The position numbers and the translations under genes are program-made. A stretch of DNA of 53,882 nucleotides, taken from contig JABWBH010000028.1 in the NCBI GenBank assembly GCA_013360585.1, positions 1 to 53,882 on the forward strand, read 5' to 3'. The DNA comes from Phycisphaerae bacterium. Its GTDB lineage: Bacteria; Planctomycetota; Phycisphaerae; UBA1845. Below are positions 16,555 through 49,345 of the stretch, piece by piece; position 1 is the first letter of the stretch, and every line of letters starts with the position of its first letter. The notes under the pieces are model-generated. The model did no database searches. It was not told the origin of the DNA and saw only the letters and a program-made list of their open reading frames with translations.

Positions 16555-18108
16555 ATGCGCGTGGAGCTGGGATTTGCGCTGCGGCTGGCGTGGATTCCTC
16601 TGGCGTTTCTGCTGGGGGTGCGGGGTCTGCACGCCGTGCGGGACTTCGGTCAGCCGACGGAGCTGCTTCACATCAGCACGGTCCCGGCTTGCCTGGCGCA
16701 GGAAGTGACACGGCATCGCCCGGTGTACCGATCGTTTGACGCCCCGCCGTATTACCTGGCGCTTTACGGTCCGTTGCTGTATTACATTCCTGGATGGATC
16801 AACCGCTCGCTGGAGTGGGGCGGGACCGATCTGGTGATGCTCGGTCGCGGGATTTCGTTGGGGGCGCTGGGAGTCGGCGTCGTGGTTCTCGCGCGTCTGA
16901 TGCGGCGCTGGGGACATGCCTCGGCGAGTCTCACCGCGCTGATGACGGGGATGTTCCTGGCGTCGGGGGTGCTCTGGCCGATCTGCCTGAGCTTCCGCCC
17001 GGATGCGGCGGAGTTCATGTTCGTGGCGCTGGCGGGGGCGGCGCTGCTGCGGTGGGAGCGGTCAGCGTTGCGTCTGCTGGCGATTCCTCTGCTGCTGGCG
17101 GCTTTTCTGTATAAACAGTCGGCGGTTTCAGCGCTGGCGGGTTTTGCGGCGTATCTGTGGCTGCGCGGACGGCGCGGGGCGGCGGTGGGGTTCGTCGTGA
17201 CGGGGGCGGGGGTGTTCACGGCGGTGGGGGCAGCGGTGAACGCGGCCACCGGCGGGGCGTACGTTCTGAACTGCTTCACGGCGCTGGACGCGAACGTGAC
17301 GGTGAGCAATCTCTGGACGATCTGGAACCCGGAGACGGCGGCGTCGGTAGGCGGTCCTTTTGTGCTGGCGGCGATGCGGATGATGCGTCGAGGACGCCGG
17401 CGCGCCGAGCTGCCCGCGGTGCTCGCGGTCGTCGGGATTGCAGCGGGATGCGCGGCGAGTGTCCGGGACGGGGCGGGCGTGAATTATTTTGTTCAGCCGC
17501 TGGGATGGGCGTGCGTCTGTGCCGCGCGGGAGCTGGGGTCACGGATGCGGCTCTCCCGTGTCCGAAGCGAGACGGGCCGGGCTGCGCCTCGACCGTCGTC
17601 CGCTGCGTTCATCGCGGGTTGCGCGGTGGCGGCGAGCCTTGTCCTGCCGACGGCGGCGCATGCCGCGGACCTTCCCTTGCAACTGCGGCTCGTGGATCGG
17701 CGCGGCGAGATCCAGCGAGACCAGCAGACGCTTCTTCACAACGTCAGCACCCTTCTGAATCGGCTGGAGGGACCGGTGATCAGCGAGTTGGGCGCGCTGG
17801 GATTGTATCTCGACGAGCCTTACATGCTGGACCTGCTGACGTTCACGGGGCTGGCGGATCAGGGCGTGTTCGACGACCGTCGGCTGATGAGTGACATTCG
17901 CGAGGGACGGGTTGCGGCGGTGGTGCTCGAATTCGACCTTGAGCGCGACGGCGTGCCTTATTATCAGTCGACGGCGCGCGTCCGGTCGGCGTGGCTCGAG
18001 GTTCTTCGGCAAGCCGGGTACGTTCACCTTGAAGCGGGTTGGCTGCACCTGTATATCCGTCCGGACGCGTACGAAGCGTTGCGAAAGACGAGCGGACCGC
18101 CGGGTTGA
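16555..18108 (+). CDS. Polytopic membrane protein, GT-C-like
   Basis: 517 residues with about nine to ten transmembrane segments in the first 360, then a soluble domain of ~150 residues. Early residues have a pattern with EVTRHRPVYRSFDAPPYYLALYGPLLYY in the first loop, which is like the large loop of membrane glycosyltransferases acting on polyprenyl-linked sugars. I do not see the defining aspartate motif with certainty, so GT-C membership is only suggested. The start at 16555 has GGGAGGGAAG ten bases upstream. It is close to the GH109-like gene (77 bases) and could be a co-transcribed cell-envelope gene. Confidence 0.5.
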   Translation: MRVELGFALRLAWIPLAFLLGVRGLHAVRDFGQPTELLHISTVPACLAQEVTRHRPVYRSFDAPPYYLALYGPLLYYIPGWINRSLEWGGTDLVMLGRGISLGALGVGVVVLARLMRRWGHASASLTALMTGMFLASGVLWPICLSFRPDAAEFMFVALAGAALLRWERSALRLLAIPLLLAAFLYKQSAVSALAGFAAYLWLRGRRGAAVGFVVTGAGVFTAVGAAVNAATGGAYVLNCFTALDANVTVSNLWTIWNPETAASVGGPFVLAAMRMMRRGRRRAELPAVLAVVGIAAGCAASVRDGAGVNYFVQPLGWACVCAARELGSRMRLSRVRSETGRAAPRPSSAAFIAGCAVAASLVLPTAAHAADLPLQLRLVDRRGEIQRDQQTLLHNVSTLLNRLEGPVISELGALGLYLDEPYMLDLLTFTGLADQGVFDDRRLMSDIREGRVAAVVLEFDLERDGVPYYQSTARVRSAWLEVLRQAGYVHLEAGWLHLYIRPDAYEALRKTSGPPG

Positions 18109-18181
18109 ACGCGGATACGCGCCGAGTAAGATCAACTTGACCGGAAAGAAGAATACCAACGCGCCAGGGAGGGCCCGAAAG

Positions 18182-20140
18182 ATGTCCGGAGCTGTCAGCA
18201 CGCCTGCCGCGCCCCCGTCTCAGCTCGGGTTTGAATTTGAAACCCCCGCGCGGAGCGGCGCGGAAAAACCGTCCACGCCGAGAGAACCCGCCCGTGCGGC
18301 GAGCCGTCGAGGCGCCAGCGCCGAGACGATGGCGAAGCAGCAGCGGGAGATCTCGGTTTCCGAGTTTTTCACGAAGAACCGCCACCTGCTCGGGTTCGAC
18401 AACAAGCGCAAGGCGCTGCTCACGACGGTCAAGGAGGCGGTGGACAACAGCCTGGATGCGTGCGAGGAAGCGGGCATCCTTCCGGACATCGAGGTGCGCA
18501 TCGAGCAGACGGATGAGGACCGCTTCCGCGTGACGGTGCGGGATAACGGACCGGGCATCGTCAAGAACCAGATCCCGAATGTGTTCGGCAAGCTGCTTTA
18601 CGGGTCGAAGTTTCACCGCCTCAAGATGTCGCGGGGGCAGCAGGGGATCGGCATCAGCGCCGCGGGCATGTACGGATTGATCACGACGGGCAAGCCGATC
18701 CGCATCGTCAGCCGGACCGGTCCGCGCGCCGAGGCGCACCTGTACCGTCTGGCGATCGACACTCAGAAGAACAAACCCGACATCATCAGCGAGGAGACGA
18801 CCGCGGTGGACTGGCCTCACGGAACGGAGGTCAGCATCGAGCTGTCCGCCACGTATCAAAAGGGGCGGGCGAGCGTGGACGAATATCTGGAGCTGGTGGC
18901 GATCGCCAACCCTCATGCGAAGATGACGTATCACGCCCCCGGACAGGCGACGACGGAGTTTCCGCGGGCGACCGAGGAACTCCCGCGCGAGACGAAGGAG
19001 ATCAAGCCGCACCCGCACGGCATCGAGCTGGGCATGTTGATGAAAATGCTCAAGCAGACGGAAAGCCGGAAGCTCGGCGCGTTCCTTCAGACGGAGTTCT
19101 GTCGCGTCAGTCCGGGAGGGGCGAGCGAGATCTGCGCCAAGGCGGGGTTGACGGCGGCGACGTGGGTCAACGCGCTGGAGCCGCCGCAGATCGAGAAGCT
19201 CTACCGGGCGCTTCAGGAGGCGAAGCTCAAGGCTCCGCCGACGGACTGTCTGGCGCCGATCGGCGCGGAGGCGATCCTGAAGGGGCTTTTGAAGGAGATC
19301 AAGGCCGAGTTTTACACGGCGACGACGCGCGATCCGGCGGTGTACCGCGGGAACCCTTTTCAGGTGGAGGTGGGCATCGCTTACGGCGGTGAGCTGGGGC
19401 GTGACATGCACGAACTGGCGTCAGCGGCGCTAAACGAAGGCGCGGCGTCGTCCGAGGGTGGCGCGTCGGCCTCGGGAAAGGCGGACGACGAGGATGTTCA
19501 GACTCGCGTGATCCGGTATGCGAACCGGGTTCCGCTGCTGTATCAGCAGAGCGGGTGTGCGTTGTACAAGTCCGTCGTCGAAATGACGTGGAACAACTAC
19601 GGGTTGTCGCAGTCGCGCGGGGCATTGCCGCGGGCGCCGATGCTCATCCTGATTCACCTGGCCAGCGTCTGGGTTCCCTTCACGTCGGAGGGGAAGGAGG
19701 CGATCGCGGATTATGATGAGATCCGCAAGGAGGTCCGGCTGGCGCTGGCGGAGTGCGGTCGCAAGCTCAACGCCCTGCTGAAGCGCAAGCGGACGCGGGC
19801 GCAGTTCGCCAACCGGCGCAGCGTCTTCACGCGTTACATCGACGAGGTGGTAGAGGCGACGCGGGCGATGGCGCGTGTGAACAAGGAGGAACTGCGCGAA
19901 GCGCTGCTGAAGCTGTCTACGCGGTACACGGAGCAGGCCGACATGGAGTTTGACGAACATGGGAAAGTCCTGAAAAAACTGCTGCCGGGCAACGATCTGG
20001 GGCTTGCGGATACGATCGTGGTGGACCGCAGCAGCGACGCTCCGCCGGCTCCGGAGACGTTGTTCGCAAGTCCGCCGGCGGGGGGTTCCGCGACAGCCGG
20101 ATCGTCCAAGCGCGGCCGCGGAGCGCGCCGAAAACGGTGA
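18182..20140 (+). CDS. top6B: DNA topoisomerase VI subunit B
   Basis: GHKL ATPase motifs are all visible: N-box with E85, N89 and D92 (EAVDNSLDACEEAG), DNGPGI (121-126) and GQQGIGISAA (152-161). An H2TH-like region and the transducer follow (ALPRAPMLILIHLASVWVPFTSEGKEAIA). Subunit B dimerises on ATP binding and drives DNA passage, while the cleavage is done by subunit A (Spo11-like). The protein (652 residues) has a ~50-residue N-terminal extension, an acidic/serine-rich insertion about residue 420-440 and a basic C-terminal tail. The start at 18182 is preceded by AGGGAGG. No subunit A gene is in the window: the next gene is on the other strand. Confidence 0.9.
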   Translation: MSGAVSTPAAPPSQLGFEFETPARSGAEKPSTPREPARAASRRGASAETMAKQQREISVSEFFTKNRHLLGFDNKRKALLTTVKEAVDNSLDACEEAGILPDIEVRIEQTDEDRFRVTVRDNGPGIVKNQIPNVFGKLLYGSKFHRLKMSRGQQGIGISAAGMYGLITTGKPIRIVSRTGPRAEAHLYRLAIDTQKNKPDIISEETTAVDWPHGTEVSIELSATYQKGRASVDEYLELVAIANPHAKMTYHAPGQATTEFPRATEELPRETKEIKPHPHGIELGMLMKMLKQTESRKLGAFLQTEFCRVSPGGASEICAKAGLTAATWVNALEPPQIEKLYRALQEAKLKAPPTDCLAPIGAEAILKGLLKEIKAEFYTATTRDPAVYRGNPFQVEVGIAYGGELGRDMHELASAALNEGAASSEGGASASGKADDEDVQTRVIRYANRVPLLYQQSGCALYKSVVEMTWNNYGLSQSRGALPRAPMLILIHLASVWVPFTSEGKEAIADYDEIRKEVRLALAECGRKLNALLKRKRTRAQFANRRSVFTRYIDEVVEATRAMARVNKEELREALLKLSTRYTEQADMEFDEHGKVLKKLLPGNDLGLADTIVVDRSSDAPPAPETLFASPPAGGSATAGSSKRGRGARRKR

Positions 20141-24441: not shown

Positions 24442-26118
24442 TCACGCTGCGGCGCTGTCGGAATCGGCGGCGGGGCGCAGCGCCTGAACGCAGTCCTGCA
24501 ACCGACGAACTTGTTTCTCAAGCTCGTCGTGAATTATCGTCAGTTCATCAAGGATTTTCTGGCTGCTCCTGCGGGCGGTCTCGGCCGGGGCCTGCAGGTC
24601 GCTGATTCGTTTTGCCTGCGCGCCGATCCGGAAGACGGCCTGCTCCATCGTCGCCAGCTCCTCCTGCGTCTCACGACTCACCATGGTCTTGCGGACGACG
24701 AGCATGCGGGCGACGGACACCGCAGCCTTGAGGTAGATGTCGGATGCGGGATCCTCCTGGTCCCAGATCACGAAGAGGTAGGATCCGTCCCGCCGCAAGG
24801 GCTCGGAATGCGGCGGCGCGGTGCGTTTTGAGTAGATGAACACCCCCACCTGCGCCTGGCGGTTGTCGCATGCCTTTTTGATTTCAACCAGGGCGTCGCT
24901 GTCACGGTAGGACTGGTCTTCCTTGGCCTCAAAAACGATGCGCTCGCCCGGGGCGGCGGAATCCGGTCCGAGGGTGATGAGGTGATCGCCGACTTTGCAG
25001 TAGGCGATCGCGCCGGTGGTGTTGCCGACGGCATCAAAGCGATCACCGGCCTGCTGGGCCAGTTTCATCAAGAGGTCGCCGACGGCTTCCTCGAAGATCC
25101 CGCCGTGGCGCGTCGAGCGGTCGATCTCTTCGCGGCGGGCCTGCATCGCCGACAGCGCCTCGCGGACCTCAGCCTGAAACCGCACGTTGGCGTCGTTGAT
25201 GCCTCGCAGCACGTCCAGCAGATGCTTCTGCATCCTCGCCAGGGGCGCGCCCTCGTCATCCAGCGTCAACTTCCCCTTGATCACGGCCTGCGTGTCCGTC
25301 AGGAGCTCCGACAGGCGCTTCAGCGCGGACTCCGGGTTGTTCAGGTCGAACTCGCGCGTGATGCGGCGCTGGGCGCCCTCCACCTGATCGACCAGGCGCT
25401 TCAGCGCGCCCTGCTCGTTGTCCAGCGAAAACTCCGCGCACAGGGCGTTGACATTGGTTTTCAGGTCATCGCGCAGGCGACCGTTGGCGTCGGTGATTCT
25501 CTGCACGAGGCGGGACAGCGCGGAGGACTCATGATCGAGCGAAAACTCGTTGCGCAGCCTCTCGTGCTGGGCTTTCAGGGCACCCTCGAGCGTTCCGGAT
25601 AACGCCGCCAGCAACCCCTCTTTCTGATCCGGCGAAAGCAGCTTGAAGATCGCGCTTTGGGCGCCGACGTGCCGGGCGAGCGTCTGTGCGATGGTCGAGG
25701 TGTCGGCGTCGAGGTGGCGGCGGAGCAGGGCGTCGAACTCGCCGTCCTTGCGCAGGAGATTCGACAACCGCGTCTCCAGCACGCCCGTCTTCGGGTCGAA
25801 ATACTGTGCGACAAGCTTGCTGACCTGTCCGATCCACTCCGCCGACTGCGCCTTGAGCACGTCGCCGACCCCCGCGACAAGGCGCTGTCCTTCCTCACGG
25901 ATCGCCGCGGCGTCGATCGCGCCGCTCGCCTGGCGGATCGCCAGGACGCCGACGCGCAGGGCGGACAGCGCGAACTCCGCGCGGACCGGTCCGTCCGGAT
26001 GCCGCGCCAGTTCCGCGACGACCTCCGGGTCGCGGACTGACAGGTGCAACGCCAGCGGCGTGCGGGACTCCGTCGCACCGGGCTCGAAGCAGACATCAGT
26101 CGCCGGGTCGGGATTCAT
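24442..26118 (-). CDS. Coiled-coil protein with PD-(D/E)XK-like core
   Basis: Unrecognised as a named family. It has an N-terminal region, then four degenerate copies of a ~30-40-residue unit headed by EFSLDHESSALSRL (191), EFSLDNEQGALKRL (229), EFDLNNPESALKRL (256) and KLTLDDEGAPLARM (283), all likely helical. Next a segment resembles a restriction-endonuclease-like core: E343/E344 in GGIFEEAVGDLL, D378 in CKVGDHLITL, and E397-A-K399 in RIVFEAKE. The C-terminus is more coiled coil. The overall picture recalls RmuC or DUF2130 proteins, which also combine coiled coils with a PD-(D/E)XK-like fold. A SEC-C protein lies 18 bases upstream on the same strand. Possible DNA-maintenance protein; function not demonstrated. 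Confidence 0.55.
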   Translation of the reverse strand: MNPDPATDVCFEPGATESRTPLALHLSVRDPEVVAELARHPDGPVRAEFALSALRVGVLAIRQASGAIDAAAIREEGQRLVAGVGDVLKAQSAEWIGQVSKLVAQYFDPKTGVLETRLSNLLRKDGEFDALLRRHLDADTSTIAQTLARHVGAQSAIFKLLSPDQKEGLLAALSGTLEGALKAQHERLRNEFSLDHESSALSRLVQRITDANGRLRDDLKTNVNALCAEFSLDNEQGALKRLVDQVEGAQRRITREFDLNNPESALKRLSELLTDTQAVIKGKLTLDDEGAPLARMQKHLLDVLRGINDANVRFQAEVREALSAMQARREEIDRSTRHGGIFEEAVGDLLMKLAQQAGDRFDAVGNTTGAIAYCKVGDHLITLGPDSAAPGERIVFEAKEDQSYRDSDALVEIKKACDNRQAQVGVFIYSKRTAPPHSEPLRRDGSYLFVIWDQEDPASDIYLKAAVSVARMLVVRKTMVSRETQEELATMEQAVFRIGAQAKRISDLQAPAETARRSSQKILDELTIIHDELEKQVRRLQDCVQALRPAADSDSAAA

Positions 26119-28412: not shown

Positions 28413-31096
<2,684 letters not shown>

Positions 31097-31100
<4 letters not shown>

Positions 31101-44794: not shown

Positions 44795-47700
44795 TCACAT
44801 CTCCGGCAGCGTTCCGCCGTAGATGATGTACACCTCGCCGCCGTTGCGGACGCCTTCGCCGGTGATGCGGTCGCGCCGCGGATCGGCCAGGATTGAGCCG
44901 AGCGCGATGTCGCCCTTTCCGTCGCCGTCGAGGTCGCCCGCACGGGCGACGCCGTAAGAGCGTCCCTTCCCGGTCTTTGAGGACGTGCCACCGATGCTGG
45001 TGTCGCCGGCATCGCCGCCACCCAAGTAGTCCCCGGCGCGACGTCCGGCGACGATCAGGCCCCGCAAGTGATCGGACCCCAGCGACCGGATACTAAGCGT
45101 TCGCCGAGTCGCATCAGCGTCCTCAAGCAACTCGCTGAAGTCGTTGGCTCCCGAGATAAGATAGGCTACGCCCGCCCGTGACAGGTTGTTGTCAAACCCG
45201 ACGAGATTCTCTTCTCCGGCGATGTCATCGCGGATTCCATCATAATCCAGATCCAGACCCGGTTCCGTAAGGTCATCAACGGCGTCCGTCGGGGTCGGAT
45301 CAAACCGTGGTCCGGCGCCGGGGGCAGTGACCAGCATATCGTTCATGCCGTCACCATCCACATCGCCCACGTCGACGACGTTGAACCCGAACCAACCGCT
45401 GGCGTCCAGATCGTTGCCGGTAATGAGCACGGCGCGTCCGGTGCGCAGCAACTCATCCACGCTGATACCCCCCGCCGGCGTCACCAGGGTCGGATGCGAA
45501 AAGATGATCAGGATCGCGCCGACGTCGGCTGTCGTTCCCTGCCCGTCGCGCCGGGCCACGTCGGCGCGAGGAGCGCTGATGACCAAGTCCGATCTCCCAT
45601 CGTGATTGAAGTCGACCCCCGTGGCCACCGAGAACCCGAACTGCGCGCCGTCTCCTCGCGTCCAGTTCACCAGGATGCCGTTCAGGCGGTTCGGATCATT
45701 CGGCGCCAACGCCAGCTTATCCAGCACGTAGTCGCCTTCGATGGCCTTGTCGCGGCGGAAGGCCACATACAGATGCCCGTCGCCCTCCGGAGACCCCGCC
45801 GCAATGTCATTGCGGCCGTCGCCATTGAAATCATCCACGCCGATCACGCGTTGAAGCTGTTCGTTGGCGCGTCCGATGATGCGCACGGCGTCCAGGCTTT
45901 CGATGCGACCCCAAGCCGGCTGGCTGTTGGCGTAGTTTAATTGATTATCGCACTCATCGATGTTCCGGACATTGCTGCCGCCAATCTCGATGGTTTCGCT
46001 GTGGCTTGGCGTTCCGATCATGTACTGATGCGGTTTCGGCGCCAGCGCACGAGGAACAGTATCCCCGCTGAACTGCAGATCCTCCCAGAGATTGTACGGC
46101 GACCTCCGGCGGAGTTCGCCTTCAACCCAGTCAAATTCGAAGTCGAACATGTAAAACATGCCGGTGCGCGGCAGCGGATCGGGGCAACCGTCGCCATCCG
46201 TATCCAGCATGCCAGCCACCTCCCCATCAATGGGGCTCACGACGCACTCGCCGTCGATAAGTCGGACGGTCGGGACTGCGACGGCGCGGCCCGGAGCGCT
46301 GACGATCAGGTCGCCCGTTCCCTGGCCGACTTGGTTGCTGTAGGAAATATCCGAACCGAAACGATCGTCTTCAGTGCGGAACGAACCGTCCTGGTTCAGG
46401 AGGGGGTTGGTTCGGTGGTCCGCCTTGTTGTCCTTCTTGCTCAAGCCGATGATCCGCGCGCCCAACGGCTCGATCGCGTAGTTGTACACGCCGCCCGCGC
46501 CATCCTGACCCGGTTTGACCACCCATGTCGTGTAAAACCCGCTCTGTCCCGCGAGACCGACGTTGGAGAAGAAATTGAGACCCCGGCGCAGCTCGCCCAA
46601 CCCGATCCGACACACCTGATTTCCATACAAGTCATACGAATAAAAGTCGCTTGAACCCTCCCAGCCGGGGAGAGGATCGAGACACGTCATCGGATCGAAC
46701 ACGTACGGACACCCGATCGGTGCGAACGAAGCACCGTGCAGGATATCATAGACGCAAGGCCCGTAAACGCTGTTGCAATCCCATCCCTGTCCGCAATAGA
46801 ACAGACTGAACCATGAATCGGCCAGCGGAGCAACGAATCCCGTACTGGCTCCGTAGCTGGTCATCGCATCGTAAAGACCGTCGTTGATTTCATCGGGACA
46901 ACTGCACCAGCCCGCACAACCGAGCGGCGTGTCTCCACCAAAGGTTTCACAGTGGCCGCCGCAGGTATCCTCCATCCCGCAGATAACCTGCATGTTGTCG
47001 GGGTTCGGATCGCATGCCGGCCAGCAGGGGTTTTGTCCGGCCACGTCCTGGAAGCCGCAGGCGTCGATCCCGTAGAAACTCGCAAAGGCCGCGGAGTGCA
47101 GGCTTGCGAAATCCTGCCCGACTTCGTCAAGGAAGACGACATGGGCCAGATCCGGATCCAGCGGGCTGCTGAGCACCGTGTTTTTGCTGCTGACGATGAT
47201 GATCCCGCCCCGGAGAAACTGCGTGGGTTTCTCCAGCGGACCGAAGTATCCACGCGAAAACGTGCGCGGAACGCCGAACACCAATTCCGGTTGCCCGTCA
47301 TTGTCCAGATCCGGAATCACCCCGATCGCCGCGATGCCCTCCGTTTGCTCACGGAAATCCGGCGTTTCAGGGGTGCGCACGCCGACGAAAACCACCCCCG
47401 TCAGGTTGCGCCCGATCGTGTTCAGGTTGTACCTTCCCGACAAGCGCTCTCCGCCGTAAAGCAGATACGCCTCGCCTTCGCCTACGCCCGACGGATTCTT
47501 GAAGTGCGGCTTGGCGTAACGCGAGTTGATCATGAGCTCGTCGCGCCCGTCACTATTCATGTCCGGGACGGCCGCCAGCGACGTGCCGGCATTATCCTCG
47601 TAGTTCACGCCTTCCAGGATCGCGCCATCGATCCGTGCCTGCGACCGGGCGAATTCGCCCAGCCACAGCGTCGGCGGCAGCGTCGTCACGCGAACGTCCG

Positions 47701-49345
47701 CCGGCGCCTGATCCAGCATGTTCTCGCGATCGTCGACCGTGAAATCCACCCGTACGAACACGCGGTACACCCCGGACTCCGTCGGACGGAAGATGTCCGT
47801 GTCCGTCCCCGAAAGCGGCGGACCCGGCGGGCGGATCTGAATCTCGGCCCCTTCCGGCTGACCCTGCGCGTTGACCCTCTGAGCGTACACTTCCAGCGTC
47901 GCCACGTGCGGGGGAACATTCGTCGTCCACGCCACCTGGACGTTGGCGTTCGGCCGCACCGGCAGCGGCGAACTCGGCTCATTGACCGCCAGCGCCGCGT
48001 TCTTCACCACATCCACCCGACCCGCAGCATACACCGTCACCGGAATGTTCGCCGAGTCGTCGACCGTTCCGCCGACGTTGTAAATCCCTTCCTGAAGGTT
48101 CGCGGTCGAGAACGACGTCGACGTCGTGTCCACCGAAGCGTCGTCCAGCAGCACGATCTCGTTGCCGTTGTTCGGCGTCGTGTCGCTGTCGAGGAAGATG
48201 TCCACGCTGCCGGTCGCGCCCGCCGTCCGGATCGTCGCGTCAAATTCGATCTCGACGATTTCCGTCCCGAACGTCTGAACGTCCTTGATCGGTTTGTTGA
48301 ACACCAGCGTCGGGGGCGTCGGAGGCGGCGGGGGTTCGTCGATCGAGACGATCGCCGCCGCAAACCGCGTCACCACCCGCGACGAATCCGCCGCAAAGGT
48401 CGCCGCAATCGACTGACCGGTGTCCGCGGCGGAGACGCCCAGCCGGTAATTCGCCCGCTGCACGCCTGTCGTGTCCCACCGGAACGTGTTCTCGTTCCCG
48501 TCGCCGATCGCCAGCTCGATGCCGAGCTGGTCCTGCGAGCAGCCTGCCCGATCCACGTCGAGCCCGCCCGTGGTCGCCGGACACTCGTCCGCGTTGTTCG
48601 GAACGCCGTCGCCGTCGAAGTCGTCGCCCGCGGCACGCTGCGACGGACCGCACCCGAACGCATCCACCTGCCCGCGCTCATCCACCGTCGTCTGCGGACA
48701 CTGGTCCAACGCGTTGAACACGCTATCCTGGTCCGTGTCACGAACGTCATACGTCTTGTAGAACAACCGCCACCGCACCCGCGTCGCTGGCGTCTTCCGG
48801 TTGTCGAAAGAGATATCTACAAACTCGCCCTGATGTACCTGGAGGTTTTCCGTCGGCGCGAGGAACTCCGGATCCGGAGGCGCCTCGATGATCAGGTAGC
48901 CCTGGCTGCGGACGGTGCTGTTGCCCGAGGGGCGCGAGATGTTCAGACCCACCTGGTACGCGCCCGTTTCCAGGTCGCTGTAAACCAGCGTCACCACCTG
49001 GCCGGCCCCGACGGGGGCGTTCGCGGCGAACACCACCGGCGTCCCGACATCGGGCGATCCCGTCGTCGGGCTTTCGACCTGCACGTAAAAAGCCGACACC
49101 GTCGCCGGCGCCACGACGTTGTACTGGATCGTGATCTGCCCGCTGCCCGAAACGTTGAAATTGTTCCGCAGGCTGAGGATCTCGTCCCGCTGCGGACTGC
49201 CCTGACCGTTGTCGTTGGTGTTGTCGCCACCACCACCGCCGATATTCGTGCAACTGATGGCGAGGACCAGACCGACCACGCAGGCCGGAAGCAGGTACCA
49301 CCCTGCCTTATGCGTCTTCGCGTGCCCTGGGTTACTGCGCTCCAT
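44795..49345 (-). CDS. Giant exported FG-GAP and thrombospondin-3 repeat protein
   Basis: 1516 residues. An N-terminal membrane segment ends in LVLAISCTN (C32), a possible lipoprotein site although the -3 residue is alanine. Immunoglobulin-like beta domains occupy ~60-600. Within them, residues ~205-270 carry two thrombospondin type 3 Ca2+ repeats (DTDQDSVFNALDQCP, DDFDGDGVPNNADECP). From ~605 on there are FG-GAP/integrin-alpha propeller repeats, with D-x-D-x-D-G loops such as VPDMNSDGRDELM, GVDFNHDGRSDLVIS and VGDVDGDGMNDMLV. A cysteine-rich insert sits at ~757-905. It is probably a surface adhesion protein. GAGG lies five bases before the start. It has its own promoter and terminator. Confidence 0.85.
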   Translation of the reverse strand: MERSNPGHAKTHKAGWYLLPACVVGLVLAISCTNIGGGGGDNTNDNGQGSPQRDEILSLRNNFNVSGSGQITIQYNVVAPATVSAFYVQVESPTTGSPDVGTPVVFAANAPVGAGQVVTLVYSDLETGAYQVGLNISRPSGNSTVRSQGYLIIEAPPDPEFLAPTENLQVHQGEFVDISFDNRKTPATRVRWRLFYKTYDVRDTDQDSVFNALDQCPQTTVDERGQVDAFGCGPSQRAAGDDFDGDGVPNNADECPATTGGLDVDRAGCSQDQLGIELAIGDGNENTFRWDTTGVQRANYRLGVSAADTGQSIAATFAADSSRVVTRFAAAIVSIDEPPPPPTPPTLVFNKPIKDVQTFGTEIVEIEFDATIRTAGATGSVDIFLDSDTTPNNGNEIVLLDDASVDTTSTSFSTANLQEGIYNVGGTVDDSANIPVTVYAAGRVDVVKNAALAVNEPSSPLPVRPNANVQVAWTTNVPPHVATLEVYAQRVNAQGQPEGAEIQIRPPGPPLSGTDTDIFRPTESGVYRVFVRVDFTVDDRENMLDQAPADVRVTTLPPTLWLGEFARSQARIDGAILEGVNYEDNAGTSLAAVPDMNSDGRDELMINSRYAKPHFKNPSGVGEGEAYLLYGGERLSGRYNLNTIGRNLTGVVFVGVRTPETPDFREQTEGIAAIGVIPDLDNDGQPELVFGVPRTFSRGYFGPLEKPTQFLRGGIIIVSSKNTVLSSPLDPDLAHVVFLDEVGQDFASLHSAAFASFYGIDACGFQDVAGQNPCWPACDPNPDNMQVICGMEDTCGGHCETFGGDTPLGCAGWCSCPDEINDGLYDAMTSYGASTGFVAPLADSWFSLFYCGQGWDCNSVYGPCVYDILHGASFAPIGCPYVFDPMTCLDPLPGWEGSSDFYSYDLYGNQVCRIGLGELRRGLNFFSNVGLAGQSGFYTTWVVKPGQDGAGGVYNYAIEPLGARIIGLSKKDNKADHRTNPLLNQDGSFRTEDDRFGSDISYSNQVGQGTGDLIVSAPGRAVAVPTVRLIDGECVVSPIDGEVAGMLDTDGDGCPDPLPRTGMFYMFDFEFDWVEGELRRRSPYNLWEDLQFSGDTVPRALAPKPHQYMIGTPSHSETIEIGGSNVRNIDECDNQLNYANSQPAWGRIESLDAVRIIGRANEQLQRVIGVDDFNGDGRNDIAAGSPEGDGHLYVAFRRDKAIEGDYVLDKLALAPNDPNRLNGILVNWTRGDGAQFGFSVATGVDFNHDGRSDLVISAPRADVARRDGQGTTADVGAILIIFSHPTLVTPAGGISVDELLRTGRAVLITGNDLDASGWFGFNVVDVGDVDGDGMNDMLVTAPGAGPRFDPTPTDAVDDLTEPGLDLDYDGIRDDIAGEENLVGFDNNLSRAGVAYLISGANDFSELLEDADATRRTLSIRSLGSDHLRGLIVAGRRAGDYLGGGDAGDTSIGGTSSKTGKGRSYGVARAGDLDGDGKGDIALGSILADPRRDRITGEGVRNGGEVYIIYGGTLPEM

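Follow-up and report, generated by a model that had tools for sequence, protein, structure and literature searches.

What does a planctomycete bacterium do with a nuclease-like core that is carried on a long, regularly repeated helical rod? This question is raised by a gene on the minus strand of the window, that is, of the whole 53,882-nucleotide stretch analysed here (Phycisphaerae bacterium, assembly GCA_013360585.1, contig JABWBH010000028.1), and more so as several of its short relatives lie in defence-type settings. The gene was found as a single copy in the 4.2 Mb genome to which the window belongs (G000), and its closest copy, 97% identical, is in a congener (G001). Selection between these two congeneric copies is purifying, with an overall dN/dS of 0.13. 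The parts of the protein that we distinguished, together with the small gene located just upstream, are listed in the following table.

Table 1. Features of the nuclease gene and of the adjacent SEC-C gene (positions are those of the window; residue numbers are those of the nuclease protein)
Feature	Position	Strand	Basis
Whole gene, 558 aa plus stop	24442..26118	-	ORF and translation; dN/dS 0.13 against the congener copy
N-terminal helical domain, residues 20-66 (ALRxGVLAxRQA)	25921..26061	-	Alignment; G57 invariant
Residues 70-190, helical, with turn motifs of lower score (one of them at residue 160, LLSPDQKEGLLAAL)	25549..25911	-	
Repeat 1, residues 191-228 (38 aa)	25435..25548	-	Self-match and motif score
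Repeat 2, residues 229-255 (27 aa)	25354..25434	-	Self-match and motif score
Repeat 3, residues 256-282 (27 aa)	25273..25353	-	Self-match and motif score
Repeat 4, residues 283-309	25192..25272	-	Weaker motif score, 8.4 against 22.7-24.7 for repeats 1-3
Predicted PD-(D/E)XK nuclease core, residues 328-479	24682..25137	-	Gap-free alignment, AlphaFold2, VIA
E343, acidic residue of helix 1	25090..25092	-	24/24 aligned rows
D378 (GD motif), immediately preceding strand 2	24985..24987	-	24/24 aligned rows
E397-x-K399 on strand 3	24922..24930	-	24/24 aligned rows; K to R in 3/13 rows of the wider alignment
N419-R420, end of helix 2	24859..24864	-	24/24 rows; only R420 invariant in the 13-row alignment
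C-terminal long helix, residues 480-557	24448..24681	-	Low-confidence full-length model; hydrophobic period 3.5
SEC-C motif gene, 68 aa	26137..26343	-	PF02810, E 3.9e-9; 18 bp upstream of the nuclease gene

The core has a predicted PD-(D/E)XK nuclease fold

The initial annotation had proposed that E343, D378, E397 and K399 fit the layout of restriction-endonuclease-like nucleases. These residue numbers were right, and all four residues were identical in every one of the 24 rows, the window included, of an alignment that covers both long and short forms of the family. That alignment was drawn from 34 translated rows, ten of which were omitted: L032 (internal stop, with Q at the place of E343), L038 (a 33-aa piece in a wrong frame), the near duplicates L043, L046 and L052, the fragments L044, L053, L056 and L057, and L054 (EAR). 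E343, D378 and E397 were again invariant in a wider 13-row alignment, as was G57 of the N-terminal domain, and K399 was replaced by R in three of these 13 rows.

Residues 328-479 aligned without gaps across six sequences, and an AlphaFold2 model of this segment only (pLDDT 82.4, pTM 0.81) displayed the α-β-β-β-α-β order of such nucleases. Both refuting outcomes set out in the initial annotation, a structure without such a core and homologues that do not keep E, D and ExK, thus failed to appear. Past a short first helix, the elements of the model follow each other as H-E-E-E-H-E-E-E-H. The first long helix carries E343, strand 3 carries both E397 and K399, and D378 immediately precedes strand 2. 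The top VIA match of this model was McrC (Z 9.8, rmsd 3.7, 125 aligned residues), a modest score since Z values of 7 to 8 are common by chance according to the tool's own note. Next in the ranking came cyclic-oligoadenylate-activated CRISPR nucleases, PaqCI and Bax1, and Holliday-junction resolvases stood further down. Foldseek matches were weak against the PDB (best E 9.8e-3), and three matches with E below 0.001, one of them named as an Mrr-domain protein, were obtained against viral models. Altogether, the models and alignments make a PD-(D/E)XK nuclease fold a well-supported prediction for the core.

The core is preceded by a helix-turn repeat rod

As initially annotated, four repeats of the EFSLD...ALxRL type are present, starting at residues 191, 229, 256 and 283 (spacings of 38, 27 and 27). 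When the segment 181-330 was compared with itself without gaps, the highest score was 73, at an offset of 27, and none of 1000 shuffles exceeded 49. A matrix built from 36 repeats of other family members recovered the four copies at these spacings, and residues 70-188 also reached a best motif score of 6.8, a value that was not attained in 1000 shuffles (maximum 6.3). The other long forms, fragments aside, have one to five copies over the same threshold, usually two to four, again with spacings of 27 or 38. L044, L047 and L053 have a spacing of 47, which a degenerate copy appeared, by eye, to divide into 20 and 27, and in L031 one more weak copy lies 58 residues upstream. The steps of 11 and 7 residues that separate these spacings fit insertions that keep the phase of a helix.

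The same annotation had described these repeats as alternating with coiled coil, a description that can be refined. In the full-length AlphaFold2 model, whose mean pLDDT of 53.9 is too low for the tertiary shape of the rod or for the N-terminal domain, the repeat region consists of helices that are broken at each FSLD turn. The mean hydrophobic period over 20 long forms was 3.85 in the rod (3.65 in the window's own rod) against 3.5 in the C-terminal helix, a period of 3.5 being typical of a coiled coil. Given this difference in period, the rod is no plain heptad coiled coil and, the helices being also broken at the FSLD turns, the term is best applied to the C-terminal helix. We found no transmembrane segment in the window protein (maximum 19-residue hydropathy 1.21). 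Five N-terminal fragments gave no match against Pfam, and a ribbon-helix-helix identity considered for the N-terminus was dropped for want of Pfam support. Coiled-coil or helical chains such as spike S2, seen among the best 60 of 430 matches when PDB sequences were searched with a profile of the 24-row alignment, were judged to be chance matches.

The protein belongs to an unnamed family with kinship to DUF2130

That the protein could not be placed in any nameable family was borne out: it had no Pfam or NCBIfam match over cut-off, no match in PHROGs or PADLOC at E up to 0.1 and no phmmer match at E up to 1, and PADLOC gave weak local matches for four of six relatives. The combination of a repeat rod with a PD-(D/E)XK core is not unique to the window gene and defines a family found in Planctomycetota, on plasmids and on phage-like contigs. 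Literature on DUF2130, RmuC, HerA/SIR2/KTSC and planctomycete coiled-coil proteins did not name this family in the titles or abstracts among the matches listed.

The proposed likeness to RmuC or DUF2130 nucleases held for DUF2130, by profile comparison; for RmuC the layout is similar, and kinship was not recovered by sequence. An hhalign comparison with DUF2130 gave a probability of 92.8, an E value of 4e-7 and a score of 45.5, while the best of 30 column shuffles scored 17.2 (the DUF2130 set excluded L060, L062 and L064, whose longest ORF is not that of DUF2130, and made no use of L067). The window protein by itself had no match to the DUF2130 model PF09903 at E up to 10, and the best match among 24 family members had an E value of 2.1e-5. 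The comparison with RmuC (without L087, aligned at 18%, and L092, a near duplicate) scored 18.5, next to 18.3 for the best shuffle, a weak negative since, with these small alignments, RmuC compared with DUF2130 itself also failed, reaching only 9.0. The RmuC model PF02646 had no match in the window protein or in its genome.

DUF2130 proteins resemble the window protein in having a PD-(D/E)XK core with an ExK motif and helices on both sides, but they are, as far as seen, devoid of the FSLD repeats and of the ALRxGVLAL domain. Unlike the window protein, they also have an N-terminal C-x-x-C (in four of six rows and, at a more internal position, in a fifth, L066). The shared layout of RmuC, coil, α/β core and coil, comes with a core whose closest homolog is given as McrC in PMC1189080. 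By contrast with the window protein, RmuC has an N-terminal hydrophobic segment in five of six rows (19-residue hydropathy 1.78-2.6), and its strand 3 carries D-x-K (D265 and K267, invariant in six rows) instead of E-x-K. CoCoNuTs likewise combine a coiled coil with a nuclease, but they are McrBC systems (PMC11090510), whereas the scanned neighbours of the window gene include no McrB-type GTPase. By profile comparison, then, the core of the family is akin to that of DUF2130.

Long and short forms have different distributions

The family was detected in 27 of 294 sampled genomes of Planctomycetota, one of which (G119) carries a short form. In the window's own taxonomic family, the long form was present in 2 of 51 genomes. 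One alphaproteobacterial MAG has a long form, and the single hit among 240 sampled Alphaproteobacteria was that probe itself. Three IMG/VR contigs, which are 72, 188 and 183 kb long, also carry long forms. The 188 and 183 kb contigs are related, with long forms (L059, 6004-7494; L071, 8001-9488) that are 59% identical to each other; they have topoisomerase- and peptidase-like ORFs, as judged by eye, and look like jumbo phages. The 72 kb contig may be bacterial; it has a DUF499 gene and, by eye, a kinase-like ORF. A jumbo-phage survey describes other REase-fold proteins, RmuC being unmentioned in the excerpt available (PMC7824862). No match to the L003 protein was detected in INPHARED phages, and viral scans with A3 and with the L034 protein found no relative.

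The short relatives are about 345-444 aa long and have no strong repeats. They are plasmid-borne in haloarchaea, Methanomethylovorans, Nostoc and Paracoccus, and also occur in the genomes G020, G119 and G365. A 28-row tree separated 24 long forms from four short forms (support 100/99), with most deep forks inside the long forms unresolved; in this tree, which does not include the congener copy, the window copy stood alone, and no row exceeded 43% identity to it.

The window gene has no defence genes among its scanned neighbours and follows a SEC-C gene

Succinyl-CoA ligase and UbiA genes are among the direct neighbours of the window gene, ABC transporter and RNA methyltransferase genes also lie around it, and the neighbours scanned comprise no defence genes and no adjacent HerA (DUF87) gene. 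The SEC-C gene precedes the nuclease gene in both G000 and G001, and the two genes are possibly co-transcribed. G002, a congener without the nuclease, has an 81% identical SEC-C copy with a DUF2130 gene about 0.2-0.3 kb on; neither sucD nor UbiA was found in the 16 kb taken from this genome, in which the contig begins 0.8 kb upstream of SEC-C. No SEC-C gene was found near the DUF2130 gene of G003, and the SEC-C/DUF2130 pairing, a single case, is no more than suggestive. Clustering of ORFs around the long forms, in which greedy ORF picks are unreliable in GC-rich DNA and provide leads only, returned clusters that, where present in at least three loci beyond the family itself, came from few and closely related loci.

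Three other genes of the window deserve a mention. An 895-aa ORF (28413-31100, minus strand) has an ABC ATPase part (PF00005, in two stretches) and a permease domain (PF02653) in one chain, and a second permease gene lies directly after it. A homologue of the B subunit of Topoisomerase VI, a protein that is less usual in bacteria, is encoded at 17891-20140 on the plus strand (Topo-VIb transducer, E 4e-56). A very large ORF of 1516 aa (44795-49345, minus strand) has an FG-GAP match.

Several relatives lie in defence-like contexts

On the Paracoccus plasmid L106 (2432-6777), a short-form nuclease gene is the last of a SIR2, HerA, KTSC and nuclease series separated by gaps of a few bases or by overlaps, in which PADLOC recognized SIR2 (E 2.3e-131) and HerA (E 9e-158). 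An association of HerA with a KTSC protein and an endoDNase that replaces SIR2 is reported as an unpublished observation in PMC9503650, where sirtuin and endoDNase are described as mutually exclusive. The Paracoccus nuclease likewise comes after SIR2, HerA and KTSC genes, but its operon has SIR2 and the nuclease together. In Nostoc sp. UHCC 0870, the short form comes after a DUF87 gene; in the other Nostoc, the upstream gene had no Pfam or PADLOC match. L054 is located near BrxC/D-type ATPases and ORFs that look HsdM/HsdS-like by eye, and one short relative is placed after methyltransferase and helicase genes.

Among haloarchaea, the Haloferax nuclease gene directly follows AAA, VWA and MBL genes, and these blocks, together with those of Halobaculum, are possibly a conflict system. 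Two Halobaculum plasmids (L101 and L102) have in common a block made of a helix-hairpin-helix gene, the short-form nuclease gene and AAA, VWA and MBL genes. On a Halosegnis plasmid (L009, 130-6846), the short form comes after genes for a PD-(D/E)XK nuclease and an ATP-dependent helicase on the same strand. Annotations in the Natrinema and Salinigranum neighbourhoods included nothing of a defence type. As for long forms, L032 is near a sigma-54 activator gene and NACHT/AAA genes, and close to L058 there are a DUF499 gene and an ORF that falls into one cluster with the sigma-54 activator of L032. Use of some short forms in defence is supported by the contexts of such relatives.

The family tends to be found where RmuC is missing

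RmuC was detected in 117 of the 294 planctomycete genomes: in 1 of the 27 carriers of the nuclease family and in 116 of the 267 non-carriers (Fisher p 1.5e-5; p 2.8e-5 without the short-form genome G119). Counted by genus, the contrast was 1/16 carriers against 93/194 (p 0.001) and, counted by taxonomic family, 1/9 against 45/~84 (p 0.03, with a family total deduced from labels), with p rising to 0.09-0.17 once the window's own family was counted as RmuC-positive. This contrast is weaker because members of the window's family other than G000, which alone represents it in the sample, often have RmuC. The tests ignore the species tree, many genomes are incomplete, and the contrast is confounded by ancestry since 22 of the 27 carriers fall in four families. 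One genome (G292) carries both the nuclease family and RmuC. DUF2130 showed no anti-correlation with the family (2/27 carriers, 22/267 non-carriers, p 1), and all three families were missing from 143 of the 294 genomes, so that such a role may also go unfilled. RmuC was present in 81 of 100 relatives but in none of four genomes of the window's genus, two of which carry the nuclease gene and two DUF2130. Thus, the nuclease family tends to be found in places where RmuC is missing, although the contrast at the level of taxonomic families is weak.

Discussion

What was computed for this gene or its family comprises the order of the predicted fold, an invariant set of active-site residues, the regular repeats, purifying selection and an uneven distribution against RmuC. 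The role that we tentatively favour, while holding it slightly less than even, is that of an active, metal-dependent and DUF2130-related PD-(D/E)XK DNase that would act in the repair or recombination of host DNA in the place of RmuC or DUF2130; we infer cleavage, oligomer, substrate and role alike. Residues 328-479 would cut DNA, and the N-terminal domain, the helix-turn repeat rod and the C-terminal coiled coil would probably serve assembly and set the reach of the core. The DNA processed would most likely be the cell's own, in repair or recombination, and the nuclease would take the place that RmuC or DUF2130 has in related bacteria. In favour of this reading are the predicted fold and motifs of the core, the DUF2130 profile match, the RmuC contrast, the SEC-C gene that is followed by DUF2130 in G002, the direct neighbours of the window gene, and the layout and McrC likeness shared with RmuC. 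Speaking against it are the confounding by ancestry, the weak contrast between taxonomic families, G292 with both genes, the many genomes with none of the three families, the lack of a contrast with DUF2130, the missing transmembrane segment, the single SEC-C case and the defence-type settings of short relatives.

It is also quite possible, if on balance doubtful, that the protein works alone as a defence nuclease and breaks down the DNA of phages or plasmids. This reading has a precedent in ShdA of Pseudomonas, an RmuC-domain DNase that protects against phages (PMC10270631), and it draws on the short relatives found in the SIR2-HerA-KTSC operon, after DUF87 or methyltransferase and helicase genes, and near BrxC/D, HsdM/HsdS-like or VWA/MBL genes, on the surroundings of the long forms L032 and L058, and on the patchy presence of the long form in the window's own taxonomic family. 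However, the scanned neighbours of the window gene are not defence genes, PADLOC did not match the window protein, and two phage-like contigs carry the long form themselves; in addition, the long forms of families f36 and f76 form supported clades, as with descent. One specific kind of restriction, by a modification-dependent (type IV, Mrr-like) enzyme, seems unlikely. Mrr_cat (PF04471) belongs to the same nuclease superfamily and had matches at E up to 1 in 12 of the 24 members, exceeding its cut-off in one of six relatives scanned, that of Methanomethylovorans, and two of seven archaeal plasmid relatives are annotated as restriction endonucleases, but the window protein itself scored 12.9 bits against a cut-off of 21, and its Pfam scan contained no modified-base reader domain.

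At the opposite end, the protein could be a structural rod that organises DNA and whose nuclease core no longer cuts. The lower dN/dS of residues 1-327 (0.06) compared to that of the nuclease segment (0.22) and the R found for K399 in part of the wider alignment would suit such a rod, but conservation of all four E, D, E and K residues across the 24 long and short rows makes it very improbable. Going beyond the host-DNA repair or recombination nuclease that we favour for the window gene, the long form, DUF2130 and RmuC might all be interchangeable rod-borne PD-(D/E)XK nucleases that serve a single conserved task in DNA maintenance, RmuC having been displaced by the long form in several planctomycete lineages and the protein having been drawn into HerA-type operons as short forms and into jumbo phages; we see this broader scenario as rather unlikely.

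RmuC and DUF2130 are widespread and poorly understood, and the family described here provides a third, separately built nuclease that is seldom found in one genome with RmuC. What a coil-bound nuclease is for thereby becomes a testable question, by swapping one such nuclease for another. The repeat spacings of 27 and 38, together with that of 20 seen by eye, moreover offer, with their steps of 11 and 7 residues, a clean case of how a helical rod changes its length.
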